Positions 28,562-39,256 of a stretch of 64,000 bases of DNA are shown here, piece after piece. The DNA comes from Alcaligenaceae bacterium. GTDB taxonomy: Bacteria; Pseudomonadota; Gammaproteobacteria; Burkholderiales; Burkholderiaceae_B. The position numbers and the translations under genes were made by a program. The first letter of the stretch is position 1; the number at the start of each line of letters is the position of its first letter. Location: positions 273,849 through 337,848 of the forward strand of contig JAUNUJ010000001.1 of the NCBI GenBank assembly GCA_030538235.1, in the 5' to 3' direction. A model generated the notes under the pieces. That model saw only the letters and a program-made list of their open reading frames with translations, was not told where the DNA came from and made no database searches.

Positions 28562-31500
28562 GTGTCATCTTATTTGATTGTCCCCGGTGCCGTTGCACTG
28601 CCAGAATCGACTAAAGCTCGTCTTAAAGAGCAAGTAAAAGCCTTAGACTTAGCTATTGATAAAATTTTTACGCGTTTCGAGTATTACGTGTATAGCCAAG
28701 AGCCATTAACAACAGAACAACAAGCTGCGGTGACTGAGCTACTGACGCGCGACACCAAGGTATTGGAAGCACAGATTTCCAAGCATGATGTTGAGTTGCG
28801 CATCTTGCCACGCCTAGGCACTATCTCCCCTTGGGCTTCTAAAGCGACTGATATCGCGCGTAACTGTGGCATTGAAGGCATTCTACGCATTGAGCGTGGC
28901 ACCTATATGGTGATTACTCCCGAAAAGAGTTTTTGGTCCGGTAGCGATATGAAGCCGGAGAAACTGCAGCAATTCATCAAGTTAATTCACGATCGCATGA
29001 CTGAAAATGTGGTGATTGGTGATGACTTTGACCCGCAGGCATTATTCTTGGAATTAGAGCCTAAGCCTTTGCGTACCGTGGCCATTTTAGAAGAGGGTGC
29101 AGCGGCCCTTGAAAAAGTCAACGTAGATTGGGGTTTAGCTTTATCTGACGATGAGGTAGAGTATCTTGTCGACTCGTTTGTTAAGCTTCAACGCAATCCG
29201 ACCGATGTGGAGTTGATGATGTTCGCTCAAGCAAATAGTGAGCATTGTCGCCACAAGATTTTCAACGCCTCATGGACGGTTGATGGTGAGGCCAAGGATA
29301 AAACCTTATTCGGCATGATTCGTGATACGCATAAACATAATCCGCGCGGCACAGTCGTGGCTTATGCGGATAATGCAGCGATCATGGAAGGGGCAGAGTC
29401 CACACGTTTCTTTGCGCCGAAACGTGCTGACGGCAGCTTTATTTATCAACCTAAAAAGCGCTTAACTCACACCTTAATGAAGGTCGAGACACATAACCAC
29501 CCGACTGCGATTTCACCTTTTCCGGGTGCCGCTACCGGTGCCGGTGGTGAGATTAGGGATGAGGGCGCAACCGGTCGTGGCGCCAATCCCAAGGCCGGTT
29601 TAACCGGTTATACCGTCGCCAATTTGCAGCTGAAAGACTTAAAAGAGCCGTGGGAAGAGGACTCTCATGGTAAGCCGAGTCGCATCGCGTCTGCGTTGGA
29701 TATCATGATTGAGGGGCCACTGGGTGGTGCCGCCTTTAATAACGAATTCGGTCGCCCGAATATCTTGGGTTATTTCCGTACTTATGAACAGACCGTGGCT
29801 GGTCGTCGTTGGGGTTACCAAAAGCCCATCATGATTGCCGGTGGTTTGGGTAGTATTGACGCGGAGCTTTGTTTTAAAGATCCAATCCCTGATGGCGCTT
29901 TATTGATTCAGTTAGGTGGCCCGGGCATGCGCATCGGTATGGGGGGTGGTGCCGCGTCAAGTATGGCCGCTGGTACCAATACCGAAGCCTTAGACTTTGA
30001 CTCAGTACAACGTGGCAACCCGGAAATTGAACGTCGTGCCCAAGAAGTGATTAATGCCTGCTGGCAAATGCTTGAAAATAACCCAATCATTGCGATTCAT
30101 GACGTCGGCGCGGGCGGTTTATCTAACGCTTTCCCTGAATTGGTTAATGACGCTAATCGTGGCGCGACCTTTGATTTAGAGCGTGTGAATCTCGAAGAAA
30201 GTGGCATGTCTGCGGCTGAGGTTTGGAGTAACGAATCTCAAGAGCGCTATGTTATGGCGATTGCCCCTGAGAGTTTAGCGTTATTTGATGAGATCGCTCG
30301 TCGCGAACGTTGTCCTTATGCGGTTATTGGTATTGCGACTGAAGAGCGTACGCTACGTGTGGTCGAGGGTGAAGGGCTGCCGGGCGAAGAGGGTAGCACC
30401 AGTTTAGAGCCCGCTAAGCAGTTACGTCCTGTCGATGTGCCTATCGATGTGATTTTAGGTAAACCGCCTAAGATGCAGCGCGATGTTCAGAGTGAAACAC
30501 TTGAGGTTGAAGCTATTGATGTGGTCGGTCAGGATCTACGTGAGCTTGGCTTACATGTGATGCGTCATCCGACCGTCGCTAGCAAATCCTTTATCATCAC
30601 CATTGGTGACCGTAACGTCGGTGGGTTAACCGCCCGCGATCAATTGGTCGGTCCATGGCAGATTCCAGTAGCTGATTGTGCGGTGACTTTGGCTGATTAT
30701 GAAAACTTCCATGGTGAAGCCATGTCCATGGGTGAGCGTACACCGCTTGCTATTGTGGATAGTGCGGCCGCTAGCCGTATGGCAATTGCCGAGTCTATTA
30801 CTAATATCGCCGCTGCTGATATTAAACAGCTTGATGGGCTTAAGTTATCCGCTAACTGGATGGCTGCCTGCGGGACCCCAGGCCAAGATGCTGCGTTGTA
30901 TGAGGCGGTTCAAGCGGCTAGTGAGTTTTGTCAGGCTTTAGATATTTCAATTCCGGTGGGCAAGGACTCAATGTCTATGCGCACGGCGTGGACTGAAACC
31001 GTTGCCGATAATTCTGAAGAAAGTATCGATAAGGAAGTGGTTGCACCGGTATCCTTAATTGTGACTGCTTTTGCACAAGTTGCCGATGTACGTAAAACCT
31101 TAACCCCTCAGTTAGTCACTGATCAAGGTCCTACCGCCTTGATCCTGATTGATTTAGGCGAGGGTAAGCAGCGTTTAGGCGGTTCTGTATTAGCGCATAC
31201 TATCAATCAGTTTGGTAACGAAGTGCCTGATATTGACGATGCGGAAAAACTGCGTACTTTCTTTGCCGTGATCCGTAGTCTGGCAGATGAGGGTTCTATT
31301 TTGGCTTACCACGACCGTTCCGATGGCGGTCTATTTGCAACCGTCGCGGAGATGGCCTTTGCTGGTCATACCGGGGTGTCTATCAATGTTGATATGTTAA
31401 CCTTCGATGGTGCGGTACAGGACTGGGGTGATTATAAAATCCGCCCTGAGCAGGTTAAAGTCCAACGCGACGAGAGCACTATTAAAGCCTTATTCAATGA

Positions 31501-32623
31501 GGAATTAGGTGCAGTGATTCAGGTTCGTGCAGAGGATCGCGATCAGGTGTTGCAGGTGCTGCGTGAGGTTGGCTTATCACTCTGCAGCCATGCCATTGGT
31601 ACCTTAAATGACAAAGACACCATTGAAGTGTTCCGCGATGGTGGCGTTGTCTTAGAGTACCCGCGCGCTGAATTAGGTGCGGCTTGGAGCGAAGTGGGTT
31701 ATGAAATCGCTAAGTTACGTGAAAATCCTATCACGGCTCAGGCTGAATTTGATCGTTGGAAGGATACTAGCGATGTGGGCCTAAATGCTAAAGTTGATTT
31801 TGACCCTCAAGAAGATATCGCCATGCCTTATTACAACAAGGCACGTCCGACAATCGCTATTGTGCGCGAACAGGGCTCTAATAGCCAGGTTGAAATGGCT
31901 TGGGCTTTCCATAAGGCCGGCTTTACCGTCTATGATGTGCATATGACGGATCTTTTAGAAGAGCGTATTAAGCTAGCAGACTTACAGGGTCTAGTGGCCG
32001 CCGGTGGCTTCAGTTACGGTGATGTGCTGGGAGCCGGTGAGGGGTGGTCTAAGACGATTCGCTACAATCCGCAATTACTTGATCAGTTTAGCGAGTTCTT
32101 TAGCCGTGACGATGTCTTTGCCTTAGGGGTATGTAATGGCTGCCAGATGATGGCGAGCCTAAGTGATATTATCCCAGGCGCAGAGGATTGGCCGCGCTTT
32201 ACCAGAAACCAGTCGGCACGCCACGAAGCGCGCTTGGTGATGGCTGAAGTGAGCGACAGTAAGTCGATTTTCTTTCATGATATGGCTGGTATGCAGGCGC
32301 CAATCGTGATTTCACATGGTGAGGGCTTTGCTAACTTTTCTAAGCAAGGCGATTCTGATAATGTGATTTCAGCGTTACGCTATGTAAATAATAGCGGTGT
32401 GATTAGTGAGGCTTATCCATTTAATCCAAATGGCAGTATAAATGGCATCGCCGCTGTAACCACGGAAGACGGTCGCTTTACCATCATGATGCCGCACCCG
32501 GAGCGTGTAATTCGCAAGGCCATGATGTCTTGGGCACCTAATTCTTGGGGTGCGAAGGACAGTGGGGGTGAGCAAACGCCTTGGATGCGTATGTTCATGA
32601 ATGCTAGAGTGTTTATCGATTAA
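28562..32623 (+). CDS. purL: Phosphoribosylformylglycinamidine synthase (large single-chain form)
   Basis: PurL converts FGAR, glutamine and ATP to FGAM in purine synthesis. The 1353-residue protein is the fused proteobacterial type: N-terminal PurS-like domain, linker, FGAM synthetase halves (KVETHNHPTAISPFPGAATG, GGLGSIDAELCFKDP, AGGLSNAFPELVNDANRG, IPVGKDSMSMR) and a C-terminal class I glutaminase with nucleophile Cys in LGVCNGCQMM and the His/Glu pair in MPHPERV. So its glutaminase is intact, in contrast to GuaA downstream. The start codon is GTG at 28562. A tandem hairpin and terminator follow. Confidence 0.96.
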   Translation: MSSYLIVPGAVALPESTKARLKEQVKALDLAIDKIFTRFEYYVYSQEPLTTEQQAAVTELLTRDTKVLEAQISKHDVELRILPRLGTISPWASKATDIARNCGIEGILRIERGTYMVITPEKSFWSGSDMKPEKLQQFIKLIHDRMTENVVIGDDFDPQALFLELEPKPLRTVAILEEGAAALEKVNVDWGLALSDDEVEYLVDSFVKLQRNPTDVELMMFAQANSEHCRHKIFNASWTVDGEAKDKTLFGMIRDTHKHNPRGTVVAYADNAAIMEGAESTRFFAPKRADGSFIYQPKKRLTHTLMKVETHNHPTAISPFPGAATGAGGEIRDEGATGRGANPKAGLTGYTVANLQLKDLKEPWEEDSHGKPSRIASALDIMIEGPLGGAAFNNEFGRPNILGYFRTYEQTVAGRRWGYQKPIMIAGGLGSIDAELCFKDPIPDGALLIQLGGPGMRIGMGGGAASSMAAGTNTEALDFDSVQRGNPEIERRAQEVINACWQMLENNPIIAIHDVGAGGLSNAFPELVNDANRGATFDLERVNLEESGMSAAEVWSNESQERYVMAIAPESLALFDEIARRERCPYAVIGIATEERTLRVVEGEGLPGEEGSTSLEPAKQLRPVDVPIDVILGKPPKMQRDVQSETLEVEAIDVVGQDLRELGLHVMRHPTVASKSFIITIGDRNVGGLTARDQLVGPWQIPVADCAVTLADYENFHGEAMSMGERTPLAIVDSAAASRMAIAESITNIAAADIKQLDGLKLSANWMAACGTPGQDAALYEAVQAASEFCQALDISIPVGKDSMSMRTAWTETVADNSEESIDKEVVAPVSLIVTAFAQVADVRKTLTPQLVTDQGPTALILIDLGEGKQRLGGSVLAHTINQFGNEVPDIDDAEKLRTFFAVIRSLADEGSILAYHDRSDGGLFATVAEMAFAGHTGVSINVDMLTFDGAVQDWGDYKIRPEQVKVQRDESTIKALFNEELGAVIQVRAEDRDQVLQVLREVGLSLCSHAIGTLNDKDTIEVFRDGGVVLEYPRAELGAAWSEVGYEIAKLRENPITAQAEFDRWKDTSDVGLNAKVDFDPQEDIAMPYYNKARPTIAIVREQGSNSQVEMAWAFHKAGFTVYDVHMTDLLEERIKLADLQGLVAAGGFSYGDVLGAGEGWSKTIRYNPQLLDQFSEFFSRDDVFALGVCNGCQMMASLSDIIPGAEDWPRFTRNQSARHEARLVMAEVSDSKSIFFHDMAGMQAPIVISHGEGFANFSKQGDSDNVISALRYVNNSGVISEAYPFNPNGSINGIAAVTTEDGRFTIMMPHPERVIRKAMMSWAPNSWGAKDSGGEQTPWMRMFMNARVFID

Positions 32624-32752: not shown

Positions 32753-34243
<1,491 letters not shown>

Positions 34244-34271: not shown

Positions 34272-35867
34272 ATGCATCAAAAGATCCTAATTCTTGACTT
34301 CGGTTCACAAGTCACCCAAATGATCGCTCGTCGCGTCCGCGACGCCGGCGTGTTTAGTGAAGTTTTTCCCGCTGATGTGGATGAAGCTTTTTTACGTGAT
34401 CAAATTAATAATCACGGTGTTAAGGGAATCATCCTATCCGGCGCAAATCCGGACAGCAGTTCCGTTGCTCCGCGTATGGAACTCTCACCATTTGTGTTTT
34501 TAGCCGATGTGCCTGTCCTAGGTATTGGCTATGGTATGCATATGATGGCACAGCACTTAGGTGGTGAGGTTGCCGCTACAAAAGAGCAAGACTTTGCTCA
34601 AGCACATGTGGCAGTAAAGGGTAATAGTCCTTTATTTGCGACTTTGTCTGACGGCAAAACAGCCGAGGGTCTAAACCAGTTAGATGTCTGGATGAGCCAC
34701 GGTAGTCAGGTTTGTGATTTACCGGCCGGTTTTATGGTTATCGGTACCTCTAAAACTTGCCCGATTGCCGCGATGTCTGATGAGGTTCGTCTCTTTTACG
34801 GTATTCAGTTCCACCCTGAGGTAACTAATACCAAGCAGGGCGAAGCGTTATTGCGTCGCTTTGTATTGGATATTTGTGAATGCGATGGTGACTGGACCAT
34901 GGCCGCCTATGCCGAGGAAATGATCGATCGTATCCGCGAAGAAGTGGGTGATGACCAAGTTATCCTTGCGCTATCGGGGGGCGTGGATTCTTCTGTTGCC
35001 GCGGTGTTAATCCACCGTGCTATCGGTTCACAGCTTACTTGTGTGTTTGTTGATCACGGCTTGTTACGTCTCTTTGAGGGTAAGCAAGTGATGGATTTGA
35101 TGCATGAGCATTTGGGTCTGAATATTATTCATGTCAATGCCGTCGATCGTTTTATGACTGAACTCGAAGGCGTCACTGATCCTGAGCAAAAGCGCAAGAT
35201 CATCGGTCGTGAATTTGTGGAAATCTTCCAAGAAGAAGCGGCTAATCTGAGCAATGCTAAATGGCTCGCTCAAGGTACGATTTATCCGGATGTGATCGAG
35301 TCAGCTGCTAGCAAGCATGGTGGTGTTGCAGTGAAATCTCACCATAACGTCGGTGGTTTGCCAGATACTTTAAGCATGAAGCTTTTAGAGCCTTTACGTG
35401 AGTTATTCAAAGATGAGGTTCGTAAGCTTGGTGTCGCGCTCGGTTTACCTGAGAAAATGGTCTATCGTCATCCATTCCCAGGTCCGGGTCTTGGTGTGCG
35501 TATTCTAGGTGAGGTCAAACAAGACTATGCGGATATTTTACGTCGTGCTGATGCAATCTTTATCGAGGAATTGCGTAATGCCATTGACGCCGAAACAGGT
35601 AAAAACTGGTACGACTTAACATCTCAGGCTTTTGCGGTATTTTTACCGGTGAAGTCTGTGGGTGTCAATGAAGGTAGTCGTGTCTATGAGTACGTCGTGT
35701 CTTTACGTGCGGTGCAGACTAATGATTTTATGCATGCTCGTTGGGCGCCGTTACCTTATGAGTTATTAGGTCATATTTCTGACCGTATTATCAATGAGGT
35801 TCGTGGTATCAGTCGTGTGGTTTATGATGTATCTGGAAAACCACCGGCAACGATTGAGTGGGAATAG
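34272..35867 (+). CDS. guaA: GMP synthase with a degenerate glutaminase site
   Basis: GuaA aminates XMP to GMP. The 531-residue protein has the usual two parts. The C-terminal ATP-pyrophosphatase is intact: P-loop [10 protein letters not shown] (232-241), [23 protein letters not shown] and the C-terminal KPPATIEWE. The N-terminal class I amidotransferase (1 to about 200) is not. The nucleophile position equivalent to E. coli Cys86 is Gly86 (codon GGC at 34527-34529, in [10 protein letters not shown]), the oxyanion SGGP is SGAN (56-59), and the Gln after GM is His90. His181 and Glu183 of the triad remain. It should therefore use free ammonia rather than glutamine. Length and register are unchanged, so this is not a frameshift. 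A second guaA elsewhere cannot be excluded. Confidence 0.93.
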
Positions 35868-36207: not shown

Positions 36208-37101
36208 TCACCCCATATCCGAGTGCTCTTTAGCTAACTCAAAGAAAGCCTTCACGTAGTCCAATTGCGTATCTGTTTTTCTTGAACCAATAAAAATCTG
36301 TTTTGCAATGCCATTTTCCCCCAAGGTGATGGGAACCAGGGGCAGTGTTTCTTCATATTCTTCGATCAACCAGCGCGGTAGAGCTGTGACACCACGATTG
36401 CTAGCCACCATATGTAATAGAATATCAGTGGTTTCAATGGTTTTATGTTGCCGAGGCAAAATACCGGCAGGCAGTAGAAACTGACTGAAAATATCCAGTC
36501 GCTCAATATCCACTGGGTAGGTAATTAAAATTTCCGTTGCGAGTTGTTCCGGTGTGATATAGCGCTCCTTGGCAAGCTGGTGATTCTTCGAGACAACCAA
36601 AACCTGCTCGTAGTCGAAAACGGCTTCAAATGTCAGACCTGAACTAAAAAAAGGGTCAGGTGTCACCAGTAAATCAATTTCAAAATTAAATAAACCGCCA
36701 ATACCGCCGAATTTAAACTTTTGTTTAACATCGAGATCCACATCAGGCCAAGCGCTTAGATAAGGTGACACGATTTTCAGTAACCATTGATAGCAGGGGT
36801 GACATTCCATACCGATACGCAAGGAGCCACGCTTGCCATGGGCGTATTGTTGTAGCCTGTCTTCGGCTAATTCTAATTGCGGTAGTACGCGATTTGCGAC
36901 AGCCAATAGGTGTTGACCGGCTTGGGTGAGTTGGAGTCGACGTTTGTCGCGGCGCCAGATTTCGGTGCCTAGCTGTTGTTCTAGCTTCTTCATGCTATGA
37001 CTGAGCGCCGATTGAGTGACATGCAGTTCATTGGCTGCGGCTGTTAAAGAGCCTTGTTTTTCAACTTGCTGAATAATGGATAAATGGATACGTTCAATCA
37101 T
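36208..37101 (-). CDS. LysR-family regulator, MetR-like
   Basis: A 297-residue LysR regulator with the N-terminal winged helix (GSLTAAANELHVTQSALSH) and a C-terminal effector domain. It resembles MetR, the homocysteine-responsive activator of methionine synthesis: MECHPCYQWL, SGLTFEAVFDYEQVLV, EILITYPVDIERLDIF and VASNRGVTALPRW have clear counterparts there. It is divergent from mesX-mesD, a methionine synthase pair, which fits the MetR habit of regulating a neighbouring synthase. A MetR-like half-palindrome lies just before its own start, so autoregulation is likely. Confidence 0.88.
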   Translation of the reverse strand: MIERIHLSIIQQVEKQGSLTAAANELHVTQSALSHSMKKLEQQLGTEIWRRDKRRLQLTQAGQHLLAVANRVLPQLELAEDRLQQYAHGKRGSLRIGMECHPCYQWLLKIVSPYLSAWPDVDLDVKQKFKFGGIGGLFNFEIDLLVTPDPFFSSGLTFEAVFDYEQVLVVSKNHQLAKERYITPEQLATEILITYPVDIERLDIFSQFLLPAGILPRQHKTIETTDILLHMVASNRGVTALPRWLIEEYEETLPLVPITLGENGIAKQIFIGSRKTDTQLDYVKAFFELAKEHSDMG

Positions 37102-37107
37102 TTCATA

Positions 37108-37120
37108 TGAGTAAAATTCA
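37108..37120. promoter_or_regulatory. Candidate MetR-binding site
   Basis: TGAGTAAAATTCA differs by one base from the MetR consensus TGAA-N5-TTCA. A related half site (TGAAGTAAAATGG on the minus strand) lies near 37138-37152. Both are in the 129-bp divergent region between the MetR-like gene and mesX. Confidence 0.5.
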
Positions 37121-37230
37121 TGGATATGTTAAATAATACCATTTTACTTCATGTTTTGTTCTGCCTAAAATAACAAACATATTTAAAGTATTTAGCGCTT
37201 GAGGTTAAAGCATATTTGGATTTGAAAACA

Positions 37231-38208
37231 ATGACTAAAGAGTTTGTATTTGAGATTAAACGTATTCGTTTTGATGAGGATTATCATCCATCAGAAGACA
37301 CACGAATCACGACGAATTTTGCTAATTTGGCAAGAGGCGAAAAACGCCAAGAGAATTTACGTAATACGTTAAAGCTCATCAATAATCGTTTTAATAGCCT
37401 AGCGGATTGGGATAATCCTGAAGGCGATCGTTATACTGTTGAGCTTGATATTATTTCAGTTGATCTTGATGTGGAGGGTCAAGGAAATTTCTTTCCGGTG
37501 ATTGAAGTATTAAAAACTAACGTTATTGATCATTTAAATAACACGCGTTTTGATGGTGTTGTTGGCAATAATTTTTCTTCTTATGTGAGGGATTATGATT
37601 TTAGTGTGTTATTGCCTGAGCATAATAAAAACAAAAAAGACTTCACACTCCCTGAAGCCTATGGTGAATTGCATGGAAAATTGTTTAAGGCCTTTTTGAA
37701 TTCAAATGTTTATAAAGAAAACTTTAGTAAATTACCGGTGATTTGTCTCAGCGTATCAAGCAGCAAAACTTATTATCGCACGGGCAATGAGCATCCTATT
37801 CTGGGTGTTGAGTATCAGCAGGATGAGTTTTCTTTGACCGATCAGTATTTTGAAAAAATGGGTTTGGGTGTGCGCTATTTTATGCCTAAAAATAGTGTTG
37901 CCCCATTGGCATTTTACTTTGCCGGTGATTTGCTTAGTGATTATTCAAATCTTGAATTAATTAGCACCATCAGTACGATGGAGGCTTTTCAAAAGATTTA
38001 TCGTCCCGAAATTTATAATGCAAATGTTATAGCAGGCAAAGTCTATCAACCGCGTTTAGAAAATCAAGATCACTCCTTAACTCAAATTATCTATGACCGA
38101 GATGAGCGAAGCGAGTTAGCCATAGCTCAGGGTCGATTTACCGAAACACATTTTATTAAACCGTATAAGTCCATTCTTGAGCAATGGCTTGTCAGTCACG
38201 CAATTTAA
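37231..38208 (+). CDS. mesX: MesX, DUF1852 partner of folate-independent methionine synthase
   Basis: The 325-residue protein matches DUF1852 (FEIKRIRFDEDYHPSEDTRI, TTNFANLARGEKRQENLRN, RYTVELDIISVD). This family, named MesX, is required together with MesD for an oxygen-dependent, folate-independent methionine synthase in aerobic bacteria such as Acinetobacter. Its biochemical role is not settled. The ATG at 37231 is chosen over an in-frame TTG at 37216 because known members start at this point (M-T/S-K-E-F). No signal peptide or membrane helix; cytoplasmic. It is 19 bp upstream of mesD and divergent from the MetR-like regulator. Confidence 0.85.
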   Translation: MTKEFVFEIKRIRFDEDYHPSEDTRITTNFANLARGEKRQENLRNTLKLINNRFNSLADWDNPEGDRYTVELDIISVDLDVEGQGNFFPVIEVLKTNVIDHLNNTRFDGVVGNNFSSYVRDYDFSVLLPEHNKNKKDFTLPEAYGELHGKLFKAFLNSNVYKENFSKLPVICLSVSSSKTYYRTGNEHPILGVEYQQDEFSLTDQYFEKMGLGVRYFMPKNSVAPLAFYFAGDLLSDYSNLELISTISTMEAFQKIYRPEIYNANVIAGKVYQPRLENQDHSLTQIIYDRDERSELAIAQGRFTETHFIKPYKSILEQWLVSHAI

Positions 38209-38227
38209 TTATCAAAACTGGAACATT

Positions 38228-39256
38228 ATGTTGAAAAAATTACTACCGACCTCTACCGCTGGCAGCTTGCCTAAACCATCTTGGCTTGCTGAACCGGAGC
38301 AGCTTTGGTCACCATGGAAGCTAGCGGGTGAGAGTTTAGTCGAAGCTAAAAAAGACGCTTTGTTAGTGGCGCTAAAAGAACAAGAAAGCGCGGGCATTGA
38401 TATTATCAGTGATGGCGAGCAAACGCGGCAGCATTTCGTGACTACCTTTATTGAACATTTGGCAGGTGTTGACTTTGAAAAGCGTGAGACGGTAAGGATT
38501 CGAGATCGCTATGATGCGAGTGTGCCGACGTTGTTTGACGAGGTCGCCCGTATTAAGCCGGTTTTTGTTGAAGACGCAAAGTTTTTACGCCAACACACGG
38601 ATCGTCCGATCAAGTGGGCGCTACCCGGGCCCATGACCATGATTGATACTTTGTATGATGCGCATTACAAAAGTCGAGAAAAACTCGCCTGGGAATTCGC
38701 GACTATTTTGAATCAAGAAGCCAAGGAATTGGAAGCGGCCGGTGTTGATATCATTCAGTTTGACGAGCCGGCATTTAACGTCTTCTTTGATGATGTAAAT
38801 GATTGGGGCATTGCTGCCTTAGAGCGTGCTATTGAAGGCTTAAACTGTGAGACCGCGGTGCATATTTGCTATGGCTACGGGATTAAAGCCAACACAGACT
38901 GGAAAAAGACCTTAGGTTCGGAGTGGCGCCAATACGAGGAGTTTTTCCCGAAATTACAGCAATCTAAAATCGATATGATTTCTTTAGAGTGCCATAATTC
39001 TCACGTCCCAATCAGTTTACTTGAACTGATTCGAGGAAAAAAAGTGATGGTGGGTGCGATTGATGTGGCGACTAATCGCATTGAAACAGCCGATGAAGTG
39101 GCTGATACCCTAAGAAAAGCACTGCAATATGTGGATGCGGATAAGCTTTATCCTTGTACTAATTGTGGCATGGCACCCTTGACACGTGCTGTGGCTAATG
39201 GAAAATTAAAGGCCTTAAGTGCTGGTGCAGAGATTGTTCGTCGCGAATTATCGTGA
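38228..39256 (+). CDS. mesD: MesD-type core methionine synthase
   Basis: A 342-residue protein equal to the C-terminal catalytic half of MetE only; it lacks the N-terminal half that helps bind methyl-tetrahydrofolate polyglutamate. Zinc ligands that bind homocysteine are visible: His212 and Cys214 (VHICYGYG), Glu254 (ISLECHNS) and Cys310/Cys313 (PCTNCGM). With mesX next door it fits MesD, which methylates homocysteine from a methyl donor that, to my knowledge, has not been identified. The ATG at 38228 is used; the frame is open upstream into mesX but the family sequence LLPTSTAGSLPKP starts here. A terminator follows. Confidence 0.87.
   Translation: MLKKLLPTSTAGSLPKPSWLAEPEQLWSPWKLAGESLVEAKKDALLVALKEQESAGIDIISDGEQTRQHFVTTFIEHLAGVDFEKRETVRIRDRYDASVPTLFDEVARIKPVFVEDAKFLRQHTDRPIKWALPGPMTMIDTLYDAHYKSREKLAWEFATILNQEAKELEAAGVDIIQFDEPAFNVFFDDVNDWGIAALERAIEGLNCETAVHICYGYGIKANTDWKKTLGSEWRQYEEFFPKLQQSKIDMISLECHNSHVPISLLELIRGKKVMVGAIDVATNRIETADEVADTLRKALQYVDADKLYPCTNCGMAPLTRAVANGKLKALSAGAEIVRRELS

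Follow-up and report, generated by a model that had tools for sequence, protein, structure and literature searches.

Loss of the glutaminase nucleophile from GMP synthase and carbamoyl-phosphate synthase in Oligella, with free ammonia as the likely nitrogen donor

The Cys, His and Glu of the glutaminase triad are called invariant across GMP synthase sequences in a section of a 2023 review, which also describes the ATP-pyrophosphatase module as independent of the glutamine amidotransferase (GATase) domain and able to take external ammonia in vitro, and gives the Km of the E. coli enzyme for NH4+ as 103 mM (PMC10526850). According to part of another study, on the Plasmodium GMP synthase PfGMPS, the mutant C89A retained its ammonia activity, with a Km for NH4Cl of 8 mM versus 19 mM for the wild type and 2.8 mM when C113A was added, and the mutation D172A brought the Km for Gln up to 62 mM, compared with 0.36 mM before (PMC4673825). 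For carbamoyl-phosphate synthase (CPS), an excerpt of a further paper describes human CPS1 as having a glutaminase-like domain with Ser294 in place of the Cys and using external ammonia, and states that all CPS types except CPS1 use glutamine (PMC4655335). Many bacteria have a single-domain NadE, the ammonia-dependent NAD synthetase, an amidotransferase that works with free ammonia, as described in a portion of a genome survey. In Table 1 of that survey, in which components were counted and not residues, no case of a missing glutaminase component is given for GuaA (730 genomes), CarAB (600 genomes) or PurL (660 genomes) (PMC3376133). In a mainly open-access literature, with papers that name both Oligella and carbamoyl outside its coverage, we found no report of a GuaA, or of a CarA from bacteria, that naturally lacks the Cys.

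Here we describe such a GuaA from a window of 64,000 nucleotides (the whole stretch of DNA that was analysed) in the genome of an Oligella sp. of the family Alcaligenaceae (G000; 14 contigs with a total of 2.43 Mb, completeness 99.45%). Compared with the described GuaA (NF000848; E. coli 1gpm), it has the same domain order, the synthetase and dimer domains and the HPE of the triad, but it lacks the nucleophile Cys and its glutamine site has decayed. It shares a dead GATase domain with the laboratory mutants C89A and C89A/C113A of PfGMPS. In contrast to these engineered proteins, the Oligella change is natural and the decay of the glutamine site is wider. It also differs from single-domain NadE, whose glutaminase domain is absent, since the domain of Oligella GuaA is present but dead. 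The CPS small subunit CarA of Oligella exhibits a Cys loss analogous to that of animal CPS1, with the domain retained, in a bacterial CPS and known here from sequence. Unlike CPS1, Oligella has a CarA-CarB pair, the Cys is replaced by Gly or Asp, position 293 has Ala, Val, Ile or Gly instead of Gln, and the loss is joint with GuaA and partly with PurL. We consider it likely that GuaA of this Oligella is an ammonia-dependent GMP synthase with a pseudo-glutaminase, that CarA and, in one subclade, PurL have changed likewise, and that an ammonia-replete life was the cause.

GuaA and its neighbours in the window

Table 1. Position of guaA, its domains and informative codons, and of the neighbouring purL and guaB, in the window.
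Feature	Position	Strand	Description
purL	28562..32623	+	Glutaminase Cys retained (TGT at 32132-32134); identified by aligning it to E. coli purL
guaB	32783..34243	+	Upstream neighbour of guaA; ATG at 32783, mechanical ORF start at 32765; named by eye from the translation
guaA	34272..35867	+	531 aa, uninterrupted; GMP synthase of the two-domain type whose glutaminase domain is dead; no other copy found in G000
Pseudo-glutaminase (class I GATase) domain	34272..34886	+	About residues 1-205; Pfam GATase match at residues 6-200
Codon 86	34527..34529	+	GGC (Gly) replaces the nucleophile Cys; TGC in G005 and G181
Codon 90	34539..34541	+	His replaces the Gln after YGM
Codon 145	34704..34706	+	Ser; all 27 intact GuaA aligned have Asp here, which is gone in 8/8 full-length loss species
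Codons 181-183	34812..34820	+	HPE of the triad, retained
ATP-pyrophosphatase and dimerisation domains	34911..35867	+	Residues 214-531, conserved; NCBIfam guaA_Cterm match at 214-531

Scored with NF000848, the NCBIfam model for GMP synthase, the window GuaA reached 729 bits (cut-off 400). It carries ATP-pyrophosphatase, GMP_synt_C and GATase in one chain, as in a two-domain GMP synthase, and a search of the whole genome gave this one match only. A preliminary description of the window, made from the letters alone, had reported Gly at residue 86, and the codon indeed reads GGC. The description also held for His90, for Gln-Asp-Phe-Ala (QDFA) at residues 106-109 where REFG is expected, for His181 and Glu183, and for the C-terminal half. 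The Cys-His-Glu triad of a glutamine-hydrolysing GMP synthase is therefore broken by Gly86, though its His and Glu are present, and the glutamine site, for which Gln90, Asp145 and REFG are expected, reads His90, Ser145 and QDFA. The same description had set SGAN (residues 56-59) against SGGP, which was the wrong comparison, as aligned family members usually read SGSH. Its claim of further changes beyond Cys86 was real and above chance, but it missed two of them. The SHGD motif reads SHGS through the loss of Asp145, and His186 is replaced by Asn; both residues are invariant in 27 aligned intact GuaA. Judging from the motif, D172 of PfGMPS is probably the counterpart of Asp145.

The decay was quantified as the share of invariant sites that are broken. 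In the GATase domain this share was 13% for the window GuaA and 13-46% over the eight full-length loss species. As a control, each of the 27 intact GuaA (26 from the family and one from another family) was left out in turn, and at most 4.9% of the sites were broken. At the level of alignment, the change in the GuaA GATase domain thus exceeds chance. The synthetase half of the loss species had 7.5-10.8% of its invariant sites broken, versus at most 4.6% in the intact proteins; these extra breaks may be due to adaptation to ammonia or to generally faster evolution. Altered invariant sites were denser in the GATase domain (22/77) than in the synthetase (22/186).

Two observations concern the gene neighbourhood. 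In O. urethralis, purL does not adjoin guaBA, unlike in the window and in the other Oligella read. At 36208-39256 of the window, a LysR-like ORF diverges from a 330-aa ORF and a 359-aa MetE-like ORF (assigned by eye).

Spread of the Cys86 loss in Oligella and its family

Eight genomes of the genus were sampled (G000-G007). Residue 86 of GuaA is Gly in G000, G001, G002, G004, G006 and G007, encoded by GGC or GGT, Ala in G003, and Cys, encoded by TGC, in G005. The preliminary description had suggested looking for Gly86 in relatives, and 7/8 members of the genus turned out to lack the Cys. The GuaA of G003 is incomplete, with the contig ending shortly past residue 103. G005 is the most distant member (70% identical GuaA) and retains GICYGMQ and the other glutaminase motifs. 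The closest named match to the window GuaA was that of O. urethralis DSM 7531 (NZ_AQVB01000004.1), with 85% identity; this record and G002 probably represent one assembly and are not independent evidence. Several of the relatives are draft assemblies with a completeness of 83-93%, which leaves some room for a sequencing, assembly or contamination artefact. The probability of such an artefact is practically negligible, as seven species of the genus are affected, their codons differ and further changes are co-located.

Outside the genus, the canonical Cys motif was found in 240/268 genomes of the family, counted as motif matches per genome and not each confirmed to lie in guaA. The 28 genomes that lack it comprise the seven loss Oligella, two members of genus g62 (G179 and G180) and 19 others. 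A protein search of these 19 gave GuaA fragments short of the site in four (G024, G033, G243 and G266), and in the remaining ones either no match or weak matches (<=33% identity, <25 bits) resembling other amidotransferases. G179 and G180 are hence the only readable Cys86 losses outside Oligella in the family. G180 has Gly86 (GGC), G179 has Ala86 (GCC) together with Tyr at 181, and their congener G181 is intact. A stricter pattern that asks for a replaced Cys matched 6/268 genomes of the family and 1/398 genomes drawn over the phylum, the single one being G000; the latter count is a lower bound because the pattern misses G002, G003 and G179. In the same family, G031 (99% complete) gave no GuaA match, which reflects either an assembly gap or a true loss.

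The glutaminase might still be active with a different nucleophile or mechanism, and the presence of His181 and Glu183 in 6/6 full-length Oligella GuaA would agree with this. We regard it as extremely unlikely, given that 9/9 loss species have Gly or Ala at residue 86, that the glutamine-binding residues have decayed and that the triad His itself is gone in G179.

A tree of 19 species was built from GuaA and CarA without their glutaminase parts. Six Oligella loss species formed one clade (support 100) joined to G005 (75), and G179 and G180 formed another (100) joined to G181 (87), with moderate support for the deeper groupings. Because G179 and G180 lost the Cys while their relative G181 is intact, separately from Oligella, the tree indicates that the glutaminase was lost at least twice in the family. 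One or two events may lie behind the loss inside g62.

Joint loss in CarA, the change in PurL, and selection

CarA was read in 26 species. Its Cys269 (E. coli numbering) is absent in 9/26, G000 included, and these are exactly the nine species without GuaA Cys86. The replacement is Gly in eight species and Asp in G006, and the other 17 species (13 genera), G005 and G181 among them, retain the Cys. In the CarA triad, G002 has Gln and both G179 and G180 have Tyr in place of the His, and G001 has Val in place of the Glu. The glutamine-binding positions 47 and 313 differ from E. coli in 8/9 and 9/9 loss species, respectively; position 313 also differs in the intact G017 and G181. Broken invariant sites in the CarA GATase domain amounted to 9-47% in the loss species versus at most 5.0% in the 17 intact ones. 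As in CPS1, the Cys is replaced while the glutaminase-like domain is retained, and the ammonia-gate residues Cys232, Ala251 and Ala314 of CarB are present in 8/8 loss species read. Genus g62 repeats the joint loss in GuaA and CarA, with stronger decay than in Oligella.

The preliminary description had held the loss to be specific to GuaA. This was wrong, since the CarA Cys is gone in the same species and the PurL Cys is gone in four sister species, although PurL of the window does retain its glutaminase Cys, as had been stated. The PurL Cys is present in G000, G004, G005, G180 and G181. It is replaced by Ser (TCA, TCC or TCT) in G001, G003, G006 and G007, in which the Glu of the HGEG motif is lost too; the comparison was made without G002 and G179, where PurL was not located. 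The four species with Ser formed one group (98) in a seven-species tree of the PurL synthetase part and the CarA N-terminal part. In the 19-species GuaA/CarA tree, made without G003, the other three grouped at a support of 55 only. Read from these trees, the PurL change looks like a later, third loss.

Branch lengths were estimated on a fixed topology. For GuaA, the GATase/synthetase lengths came to 0.734/0.220 on the stem of Oligella, 0.817/0.397 inside the Oligella loss clade and 1.930/0.479 inside the pair G179 and G180, and the remaining tree gave 2.704/1.487. For CarA, the GATase/N-terminal lengths in the same order were 0.298/0.420, 1.036/0.805 and 1.705/1.711, with 2.013/4.860 for the remaining tree. 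The g62 stem had no excess (GuaA 0.138/0.145, CarA 0.206/0.464). The pairwise ratio of GATase to synthetase difference in GuaA was slightly raised in Oligella, with overlapping ranges (mean 1.93, 1.32-2.74, versus 1.71, 1.20-2.54, in intact pairs), and the CarA ratio was higher in Oligella (1.34 versus 0.73; 15 versus 55 pairs). Between six Oligella species, where computable, dN/dS was 0.06-0.15 for the GuaA GATase domain, 0.04-0.14 for the CarA GATase domain and 0.02-0.05 for the GuaA synthetase, and the value for the CarA GATase domain did not clearly exceed the one for the N-terminal part of CarA. With dS near saturation, pairwise dN/dS has limited value here, so more weight was given to the invariant-site breaks and branch lengths. 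The full copies of GuaA, CarA and PurL that were read have no internal stops. Together with a dN/dS well below one, these open copies suggest that the fold of the dead domains is still under selection.

The three enzymes could be dispensable, with purines and carbamoyl phosphate obtained by uptake or other routes and the genes simply decaying. A class I profile search of the seven loss Oligella turned up nothing HisH-like, which suggests that this lineage has been losing biosynthetic genes. We nevertheless judge dispensability unlikely, in view of the uninterrupted reading frames, the low dN/dS (read with its near-saturated dS) and the concentration of changed invariant sites in the GATase domain. 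The shared loss, the decay of the glutamine site and the conserved synthetase half support what the preliminary description had proposed, namely that glutamine hydrolysis has been lost over the long term and that selection acts on the synthetase half. By their gene content, the loss Oligella are possible histidine auxotrophs; G005 has a 243-aa HisH candidate (C5:147333-147941).

Ammonia as donor and the proposed mechanism

Free ammonia, a separate amidotransferase subunit or a second guaA had been named beforehand as possible donors for the window enzyme. Neither a second guaA nor a spare class I subunit was found in G000, and of the three, free ammonia is the simplest and likely donor. The PF00117 profile matched four proteins of this genome, namely GuaA, CarA and, as judged by their size and motif, a PyrG and one TrpG/PabA, and none of them is spare, as a two-subunit GMP synthase would need; the PurL glutaminase falls outside the profile. 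TrpG/PabA (GVCLGHQ) and PyrG (GICLGMQ) retain the Cys where read, each in 7/8 genomes of the genus, and the Cys is also retained in TrpG/PabA and PyrG of G180 and in PyrG of G179.

With these active motifs at hand, a separate glutaminase could in principle pass ammonia in trans to GuaA and CarB, as in the two-subunit archaeal GMP synthases, and the search for a spare enzyme covered class I (PF00117) and not class II or unrelated glutaminases. Such a supply is quite unlikely, as all four PF00117 matches in G000 are assigned and the pseudo-domain is still fused to the synthetase.

Ammonia supply does not explain everything, because PyrG and TrpG/PabA keep their Cys. Cyanate reacts with the glutaminase Cys of CPS. 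The loss may then have been selected by a poison of the reactive Cys, such as cyanate from urea or a glutamine antimetabolite, and not by plentiful ammonia, which would be compatible with the use of ammonia by the enzymes. Part of one report places Oligella in urine among other sites (PMC11178559). The retained Cys of PyrG and TrpG/PabA speaks against this cause as well, and we hold it to be very unlikely.

At sequence level, the loss of the nucleophile, the decay of the glutamine site, the lack of a spare class I match in G000, the conservation of the synthetase halves and the joint loss in two lineages are established. From these we infer the use of ammonia, the niche as cause and a role of the retained domain. 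In the ammonia-dependent enzyme that we propose, the N-terminal pseudo-glutaminase would be retained for folding, for domain contact and possibly for ammonia passage. The C-terminal half would adenylate XMP and then aminate it with free NH3, and CarB, as well as PurL in the subclade, would draw on free ammonia likewise. Such a reaction is plausible in chemical terms, given the autonomy of the ATP-pyrophosphatase module and the lowered Km of PfGMPS C89A for NH4Cl. High internal ammonia would be needed, because known GMP synthases bind ammonia poorly. In an ammonia-replete life, the splitting of glutamine at GuaA, CarA and PurL would have brought no benefit.

A broader reading has, in our estimate, about an even chance. 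Nucleotide synthesis would have moved stepwise, and twice in one family, from glutamine to free ammonia, with GuaA and CarA silenced together and PurL later in one subclade. The dead domains would have stayed in place and been remodelled into subunits that admit ammonia or serve in regulation, as bacterial counterparts of CPS1 for purines and pyrimidines. The clade offers natural intermediates with none, two or three enzymes silenced. These make it testable how channelled ammonia chemistry is given up, what role the retained domain has and how much free ammonia nucleotide synthesis needs. Homology-based names such as 'glutamine-hydrolyzing' mislead for the Oligella enzymes.

Other nitrogen genes were also searched. 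Amt gave no match in the eight genomes of the genus. Its loss was rejected as a correlate of glutaminase loss, since Amt is also absent from the intact G005 and G181 and from genera g5, g15 and g23, whose GuaA is intact too; the loss species G180 carries a partial Amt match. By tblastn, E. coli glnA, gltB, purF, glmS, asnB, asnA and nadE had no match in four contigs of G000 (1.079 of 2.428 Mb, with 56% outside the search), and a gdhA homologue was present in the same contigs. Urease was rejected as a common ammonia source, as it was found in G001 only. This genome has two urease alpha matches (C52 and C33), the other seven Oligella having none, and may be O. ureolytica.
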